From: an uncultured Alphaproteobacteria bacterium
GTDB taxonomy: Bacteria; Pseudomonadota; Alphaproteobacteria; UBA8366; JADFVY01
NCBI GenBank assembly: GCA_947259105.1
Contig: CAMYKU010000032.1
Span: 1-64,000, forward strand
Length of the DNA stretch: 64,000 nucleotides
Reading direction: 5' to 3'
In this document: positions 13,317-14,532 of the stretch, in pieces
How the letters are laid out: the number at the start of each line of letters is the position of its first letter
Position numbering within the stretch: the first letter of the stretch is position 1
Notes under the pieces: generated by a model
What the model was told of the DNA's origin: nothing
The model's input: only the letters and a program-made list of their open reading frames with translations
Database searches by the model: none
Translations under genes and position numbers: made by a program

Positions 13317-13805
13317 TCATTTGCGCTCTCCCGGAAGGGCAATGGCGCGGCCGGCCTGTTTCGGCACCGGCAGCCCCGCATGTGCGGCCCGGATCGCAGC
13401 CAGCCGGTCGGCGATCTCCGGCGGGAACGGCGCCGATTTCGGGCCGCTAATGTCGACATGAACCAGCATATGCTCACCGGTGGCCAGCAGATCGCCGCTG
13501 CCGGCATGATACATGCTGTGGAACAGCCGGTAACGCTTTTCGTCGTGGCCCAGGAGTTGCGTTTCGACGCGCACCGCCCCGCCTTCGGAGACCTCCTGCA
13601 GATACATCACATGGGTCTCCAGCGTGTAGATCGAGGTGTTGCTGCGCTTGCGGTATTCCGAATGCTGGCCGGCAAAATCCATGAACGCATCGGTCGCATG
13701 GCTGAACACCAGCACGTAATACGCCTCGTTCATATGCCCGTTGTAGTCCAGCCAGTCCGGCCTGACAGTCGCGCGGTGCAGGCAAAGCGGCGCGTCGATG
13801 GTCAT
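13317..13805 (-). CDS. Hotdog-fold thioesterase, probable betainyl-CoA thioesterase
   Basis: A 162-residue 4HBT-type thioesterase. The N-terminal DWLDYNGHMNEAYYVLVFSHATDAFMDF contains the Asp and the GHMN pattern of this fold, followed by typical strands (YTLETHVMYLQEVSEGGAVRVETQLLG). In carnitine-degrading bacteria a thioesterase of this class hydrolyses betainyl-CoA released by the BKACE enzyme, and in some species it is fused to carnitine dehydrogenase. Here it is divergent from the BKACE and dehydrogenase genes across 727 bp, which supports that role by context. I chose the ATG at 13805; the longer frame upstream has no protein-like pattern. Confidence 0.75.
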   Translation of the reverse strand: MTIDAPLCLHRATVRPDWLDYNGHMNEAYYVLVFSHATDAFMDFAGQHSEYRKRSNTSIYTLETHVMYLQEVSEGGAVRVETQLLGHDEKRYRLFHSMYHAGSGDLLATGEHMLVHVDISGPKSAPFPPEIADRLAAIRAAHAGLPVPKQAGRAIALPGERK

Positions 13806-14532
13806 GGCGAATCCCTGTCGTTGCCGGGAAGCATAGAGCATGAATCGGGTCGTGCGGAAGCGTCTCCGCACGGGCGAGCCAGCGTGGCCGCAATCCATGC
13901 ACTGCGCACTGCGCCAAATCGGGAAACTTGCTTTCGGGGGAACCGGCCTTGGCCGTTGTTGCCCTTTCGGCATTGCGCGCAGCCACCAGCAAATAGCGCG
14001 CAAATTAAAGGAGGCGCCAAGTGCTCAGACGCGGAGTCTTCGCATCGCACCCTCGCGGGCACATCCTGACGCCTCCTGAACCGTTCCGTCTGCAGCTATC
14101 TCGACCCGGTTGGCCCGAAGGCCTCCCGAACCGGTACACCTGCTGGCTTCCCGATCCACACGTCGTTCGGTCCGAAAACCTCGCGTCGTGCAATTGAATA
14201 TTGCCGGTCATTCAAATCGGTGGCAATAGAAAAATCGCCGCTGAAGTCATTTTCTTGTGGATTACATAGTGTTTATCTTGTGTATAACTTGATTATTTCT
14301 GTGGATAACATGGTGTCTTTCGTGTGAATAAGTTGCCAAATTCGCTGATATATCCGGCCCCTACCCCCTCTCCTCCCGCGGTGGATGACCGGGATGGGCG
14401 CGGCAAGCCCGGAAGAATCGCCGTCGCAAAAAAGCTTTCCCTGGTCGGTCGAACGCAAATACCCTGAGGGATATTCCACCAAGATGCGCGTCGTGGAGCA
14501 GGACGCTGGCCGCCGGTTCAGGGAGGAGAGAC
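13806..14532. other. 727-bp divergent intergenic region with an AT-rich core
   Basis: No gene is supported here. Around 14010-14077 is an inverted pair, AGGAGGCG and CGCCTCCT. From about 14195 to 14350 the base composition drops sharply to AT-rich, and this core carries the DnaA-box-like array listed separately. The promoters of the thioesterase gene and of the BKACE operon must lie somewhere in this region; I could not fix them. GGAGGAG just before 14533 is the BKACE ribosome site. Confidence 0.6.
14255..14338. promoter_or_regulatory. Array of four DnaA-box-like 9-mers in a 44-bp direct duplication
   Basis: Four sites in one orientation read TGTGGATTA (14256-14264), TGTGTATAA (14279-14287), TGTGGATAA (14300-14308) and TGTGAATAA (14323-14331). 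The last three match the DnaA-box consensus TGTGNATAA exactly and the first differs at one base. Spacing is 23, 21 and 23 bp, about two helical turns. The flanks also repeat: sites 1 and 3 are followed by CATAGTGT/CATGGTGT and sites 2 and 4 by CTTG/GTTG, so the array is a 44-bp unit present twice. It sits in an AT-rich island. It could be a replication origin, a DnaA-titrating locus or a DnaA-controlled operator; the sequence alone does not decide. Confidence 0.7.

Follow-up and report, generated by a model that had tools for sequence, protein, structure and literature searches.

Antisense control of a structured RNA by a convergent antisense RNA is exemplified by the RNA I/RNA II pair of ColE1, and an alphaproteobacterial replication origin is expected to show DnaA boxes in the AT-rich DNA just upstream of hemE. 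An alphaproteobacterial non-coding RNA linked to DnaA boxes has been described in Caulobacter crescentus, where CcnA (ca. 180 nt) is encoded inside the hemE origin, holds weak DnaA boxes within its own gene and binds the ctrA and gcrA mRNAs (PMC8959179). In Caulobacter it is also known that one non-coding RNA may sequester another by base pairing in trans: the sponge CrfA, which is induced by carbon starvation, pairs via a G/A-rich loop with the SisA-D RNAs (alphaR8), which have in common the single-stranded core UUUCCUCCCU (PMC12559287).

Here we compare with these systems a locus of an uncultured alphaproteobacterium, contained in a stretch of 64,000 nucleotides (hereafter the window), for which we favour, as fairly probable, a promoter with DnaA boxes driving a structured RNA; this RNA would pair with a small RNA acting in trans and probably serves as its sponge. 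Like CcnA, the window RNA is alphaproteobacterial, of similar size and connected with DnaA boxes; unlike CcnA, it is found away from hemE (which is on contig C1 of this genome, and 1.2 Mb off in the relative G001), its boxes match the consensus and lie upstream of the promoter, and it has a dedicated antisense small RNA. As for CrfA and SisA-D, a non-coding RNA would sequester another one in trans, judging here from complementarity, but in the present case the whole terminator domain would pair with an antisense copy and DnaA boxes precede the promoter; the alphaR8 core was absent, by reading, from the 12 aligned small RNAs. The likeness to ColE1 resides in a structured RNA faced by a convergent antisense RNA, with the differences that the present pair is located off plasmids and has no known role in an origin, and that its partner is imperfect and sometimes unlinked. 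Finally, the window shares with the hemE-type origin a grouping of DnaA boxes in AT-rich DNA, whereas the window array lacks hemE and keeps a fixed spacing to a promoter, hemE and its boxes being elsewhere in the same genome.

The box array and its surroundings

The first-pass annotation of the window described four boxes in the same orientation, three exact and one with a single mismatch, 21-23 bp apart. These are indeed found at 14256, 14279, 14300 and 14323, with spacings of 23, 21 and 23 bp. Read on the minus strand, which is the RNA strand (see below), they comprise the proximal box at 14256..14264 (TAATCCACA, or TGTGGATTA on the plus strand, with one mismatch to TGTGNATAA), the second at 14279..14287 (TTATACACA), the third at 14300..14308 (TTATCCACA) and the distal one at 14323..14331 (TTATTCACA), whose spacing is identical in the relative G005. 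The exact plus-strand TGTGNATAA sites at 14279, 14300 and 14323 are the sole exact matches within the window, and shuffled windows contain a mean of 0.28 exact boxes and never reach three, in agreement with the earlier statement that the array is unlikely by chance. The 44-bp unit said to be present twice corresponds to two stretches of 36 nt (14256-14291 and 14300-14335), 81% identical and offset by 44 bp, and the AT-rich island to the 150-mer with the highest AT content in the window (65%), which begins at 14192. The genome-wide count that had been proposed yields 20 TGTGNATAA sites in the 4.20-Mb draft assembly, 3 of the 20 in the array, and no second array of similar kind in this draft genome.

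The array is flanked on one side by a 4HBT thioesterase gene (13317-13805, minus strand) and on the other by a BKACE gene (14533, plus strand), the first gene of a carnitine-type cluster. Comparison of the intergenic region with those of G005 and G001 shows that the conserved unit exceeds the array, extending from ~13995 to 14335 and including a structured element. Used alone as a DNA query, the box island brought only G005 above noise, and the longer element was needed. Neither of the two RNAs described below is present at the other TGTGNATAA sites of this genome or at box pairs in relatives. Within the class, a few other genomes have paired TGTGNATAA boxes unlinked to the structured RNA (L021-L027); a very weak RNA match of 14.8 bits in L027 was disregarded.

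A predicted structured non-coding RNA on the minus strand

The fold, the covariance models and the homologues predict a leftward structured RNA of ~190 nt (14002..14191, minus strand). Its predicted 5' part (14078..14191) consists of hairpins whose number varies between species, while alignment and covariation define a conserved 3' domain (14009..14077) composed of a long closing helix P1 (14077-14065 paired with 14021-14009), a hairpin P2 and a hairpin P3. Relatives have a partner small RNA whose 5' half is complementary to the P3 loop and 3' strand, CUCCGCGUCUGAGCACUUGG (14017..14036), and the GC-rich 3' strand of P1 followed by UUUAAUUU (14002..14021) makes a predicted terminator-like end. 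The minus strand folds better than shuffled sequences, with z values of -2.58 (window), -4.39 (G001b, one of two copies in G001) and -2.58 (G021, from the second family of the order), versus +0.29, no better than shuffles, for the plus strand of the window.

The same architecture is found in 22 homologues, with the long closing helix P1, an optional P2, and P3 with a UCCGC/CCCGC loop or a close variant. Among 35 distinct 3' domains, aligned to the model and thus fitted to the structure, 21 of the 26 pairs show changes on both sides and 94% of cells are paired; with an unfitted MAFFT alignment, both-side changes are seen in 12/26 pairs. The covariation score is 0.393, against 0.199 +/- 0.010 for shuffles and at most 0.136 when the alignment is slid. 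The frequent G-U pairs, which would be C/A mismatches on the other strand, and the T-run after P1 place the RNA on the minus strand. Covarying helices on one strand are what is expected of a structured RNA gene.

Covariance models from Rfam 15 gave chance-level matches only, for both RNAs, in the window, G001b and many homologous loci, and a literature search of partial coverage retrieved no description of either RNA. In f69, a match to the Rfam rpsB sRNA (RF01815), barely above threshold, adjoins the RNA pair (L115 5463-5585, minus strand).

Distribution of the RNA

G001 carries the element twice, copy a at the position it has in the window and copy b at 0.071 Mb; in G021 the 26-nt core is identical and one hairpin is cleanly missing. 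Two further carriers, a Magnetovibrio sp. MAG (JAPPPF01, L086) and a Rhodospirillales MAG (JANQJG01, L087), emerged when 85,462 species genomes were scanned for an exact pattern. A five-sequence covariance model located the element in 16/385 genomes of the class, and a 3'-domain model built on 22 sequences in 41/385 at E <= 0.001; weak R2 matches (E above ~1e-6) were left out of the argument. The structured RNA recurs in many alphaproteobacterial families.

In distant families the RNA adjoins maoC (mesaconyl-CoA hydratase), an HpcH/HpaI lyase gene or sdhCDA or, as at L215, occupies the maoC-sdhC interval in the opposite orientation. Homologues from several families, at L215, L213, L210, L211, L205, L118 and L119, lie between maoC and sdhC, or beside sdhCDA or an HpcH-HpaI lyase gene, and lack DnaA boxes; f63-type loci lack the small RNA too. 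The maoC-sdhC region looks like the ancestral locus of the structured RNA, and the window copy looks like a relocated one, placed between the thioesterase gene and the carnitine-type cluster. Outside the maoC/sdhC loci the neighbouring genes vary, as expected for the gene of a trans-acting RNA. Extra copies that, like that of the window, have no small RNA nearby were seen at G226:C8:3274-3382 (L112), where the box is kept, and at G346:C23:36078-36157.

Promoter geometry and DnaA boxes

The predicted promoter on the minus strand has a -35 hexamer TTGCCA (14221..14226), with TTG at the same place in relatives, and, 17 bp from it, a -10 hexamer CAATAT (14198..14203), which would set the RNA start site near 14191. 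Outside f71 and f106, most RNA copies display the TTG -35, the 17-bp spacer and a weak -10. With respect to these predicted promoters, the distance from box start to -35 is exactly 38 nt for 11 copies, which represent 7 lineages: the window, G001a (degenerate), G001b, G005, G021 (TTATCCCCA), L087, G352, two copies of G226, G346 and G050; f69 has its box, TTATCCACC, at 39 nt and more boxes upstream. The proximal position is kept in relatives with the sequence TTATCCACA, and all four positions are common to the window and G005. Exact boxes amount to 20 in the up to 900 nt upstream of 22 RNA copies versus 5 in ~200 kb of flanks, i.e. their density upstream of the RNA is roughly 40 times that of the flanks.

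Since the box positions are fixed relative to the non-coding RNA promoter, control of this promoter from upstream is the best reading of the array; consensus boxes at a defined distance from a predicted promoter are what a DnaA-regulated promoter would be expected to present. The earlier suggestion of a DnaA-controlled locus thus holds in kind, with another target: most likely the leftward RNA and not the carnitine cluster, because the boxes are fixed to the RNA promoter and in G005 a different gene lies beyond them. The comparison of relatives that had been recommended does not show the poor conservation that would have spoken against the array, the proximal box being kept together with the RNA in several families. 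The boxes of G001a, the same-genus copy at the position of the window, are degraded, so that selection on the relocated window copy may be relaxed. In f71, f106 and the distant homologues the RNA is present and a box at that distance is absent, hence DnaA control either is not ancestral or was lost.

The partner small RNA

At 11 RNA loci a second gene is found downstream on the opposite strand, convergent and 0.1-0.3 kb off (1.07 kb in the Magnetovibrio MAG). It corresponds to a predicted small RNA of ~85 nt with its own promoter (TTGAC and a 17-bp spacer in 12/12, then a -10), whose 5' half, CARGUGC-N2-5-GAYGCGG...CUGACGC, is the antisense of the structured RNA's P3 and P1 and is followed by a terminator. 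A model of this small RNA (R3) matched 13/385 genomes at E < 1e-4, and all 13 carry the structured RNA. Besides the 11 convergent loci, the small RNA is unlinked in three further genomes; in f71 it is 12.6-13 kb away or on another contig, complementarity being retained, and in f106 it is convergent, though this family was absent from model training. Contig ends suggest the convergent arrangement for G005 as well. The ends of G005 contigs C565 and C92 (L127, L085) have in common GCGGAGCGCAACGCCGCGA and an inverted repeat, suggesting that a small palindromic insertion between the small and the structured RNA broke the assembly.

Computed cognate duplexes are ~3-7 SD better than those with shuffled small RNAs. 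Among all pairings the cognate duplex ranks 1-8 of 12 and is not always the best, which is expected for orthologues and is no proof. At three variable pairing positions the bases match in 32/34 cases (permutation p = 5e-5, uncorrected for species kinship, which makes the value overstate independence). Such conserved complementarity to a small RNA that appears to be separately transcribed is what would be expected of a sponge.

The small RNA model found no match in the genome of the window, whose assembly is 88.8% complete, which reflects either missing sequence or loss; if the small RNA is truly lost, the window copy is partnerless. P3 is conserved in the window copy, which could therefore pair with this partner. 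A CCACAAAATTTTG-like motif upstream of the small RNA promoter (L115 5790-5840, L120, L121, L122) is conserved and in some cases repeated, and may be the site of a regulator.

Proposed mechanism and alternative readings

The computed features, namely the RNA structure, the geometry of the promoter, the conserved box, the co-occurrence of the two RNAs and their complementarity, lead us to infer transcription, DnaA binding, sponging and cell-cycle coupling. The array would activate (or repress), from upstream, a sigma-70-type promoter whose RNA would run from ~14191 to 14002. The protein that binds the boxes is most likely DnaA; the proximal box is centred ~65-70 bp before the putative start site and the extra ones are spaced by two helical turns, and with this geometry RNA synthesis would track the level or state of DnaA, i.e. 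growth and replication. The transcript would combine 5' hairpins (up to ~15 UUCG-type loops in relatives) with a conserved 3' domain that doubles as terminator. The ~85-nt small RNA, expressed from its own promoter as an antisense of this domain, would pair in trans, and the structured RNA most likely sponges it, relieving the repression of mRNAs. What had been suspected to be an odd origin becomes an RNA family scattered widely in Alphaproteobacteria and not in Rfam 15; its antisense partner is a dedicated one, and boxes of the replication initiator keep a fixed distance to its promoter. Should DnaA bind these boxes, the initiator would directly drive a regulatory RNA outside the origin.

That the array is itself a chromosomal or plasmid replication origin, the first proposal made for it, is extremely improbable. 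DnaA boxes within AT-rich DNA would fit an origin and an RNA with an antisense partner resembles ColE1-type control, but hemE is on another contig (C1:56760), where the AT-rich intergenic region before it (G000 C1:56340-56760; L071 6340-6760) holds TGTGGATAA, TTATTCACA, TTATCCC and TTATCCATA and is likely the true chromosomal origin. In G001, the nearest relative with a one-contig chromosome (3.86 Mb), hemE, also preceded by a DnaA box, maps to 1.304 Mb, ~1.2 Mb from each of the element copies (2.511 and 0.071 Mb); GC skew in this genome (40 samples of 20 kb) shows no clear V, is unremarkable at 2.51 Mb and is too weak to place the origin. Homologues are moreover located at ordinary chromosomal loci, often adjoining sdhC, replication genes are absent nearby, and the plasmid, phage and viral collections searched gave no match. 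A DnaA titration site, or a regulator of the divergent carnitine cluster (BKACE, 14533) to which the RNA is incidental, is very unlikely as well: the four closely spaced boxes are ~200 bp upstream of BKACE, yet in G005 the gene that follows the element and its array encodes a solute-binding protein and BKACE is 6.3 kb distant, and neighbours differ again in other families, only the distance to the RNA promoter being constant. Another transcription factor might bind the boxes, leaving RNA and promoter real with no link to replication. Conservation reaching past the 9-mer (TTATCCACAAGAAA), possibly the site of another protein, and the families with RNA and no box point in this direction; TTATCCACA is, however, the textbook DnaA consensus and is repeated 2-4 times with some phasing, and we know of no other regulator with this consensus, so that we regard this reading as unlikely.

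Concerning the transcribed element, conservation due to a small plus-strand protein (GTG at 14021, 58 aa) is scarcely credible. The GTG is preceded by AAAGGAGG and the frame is open with an identical stop in G000 and G005, but in G001a and G001b its end differs, in G021 it is disrupted by a deletion of 20 nt, and paired changes preserve helices of the opposite strand; this ORF was rejected because its reading frame is not kept among relatives. The serious rival to the sponge is the inverse relation, in which the small RNA silences the structured RNA, the latter being the effector and the former its antisense repressor (counter-transcribed RNA control), with no sponge. In its favour, the small RNA is antisense to the 3' domain over nearly the full length (both GCGUCAG and CCGCGUC-GCACYUG) and in most cases lies convergent at no more than 0.3 kb, and no small RNA accompanies the structured RNA in the distant homologues. 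On the other hand, the f71 small RNA is unlinked (12-13 kb off or on another contig), and the promoter with its conserved upstream motif is like that of an independent regulator; we judge effector control rather unlikely and retain the DnaA-box promoter driving a probable sponge.

Hairpin number and evolution of the RNA pair

Tentatively, and as a possibility rather than a probability, the structured RNA may be ancient and originally located between maoC and sdhC, several lineages having later gained DnaA control and the antisense partner. The result would be a two-RNA switch through which the state of replication or growth is coupled to control after transcription, its capacity tuned by the number of hairpins (1 to ~15). 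A hairpin array of variable copy number and antisense pairing over a whole domain are unusual for sRNA sponges. The window's own family has 0-2 UUCG-type loops in the 5' part, and across species the predicted RNA measures from 137 to 605 nt. In L113 (G346), L114 (G050) and L086 (the Magnetovibrio MAG) there are hairpin arrays of type GGUCGGGAAGCCUUCGGGCGGAACGGUCC, with 12-15 UUCG-type loops, a symmetric GGAA/GGAA internal loop and a highly variable copy number, which possibly constitute a protein-binding array.
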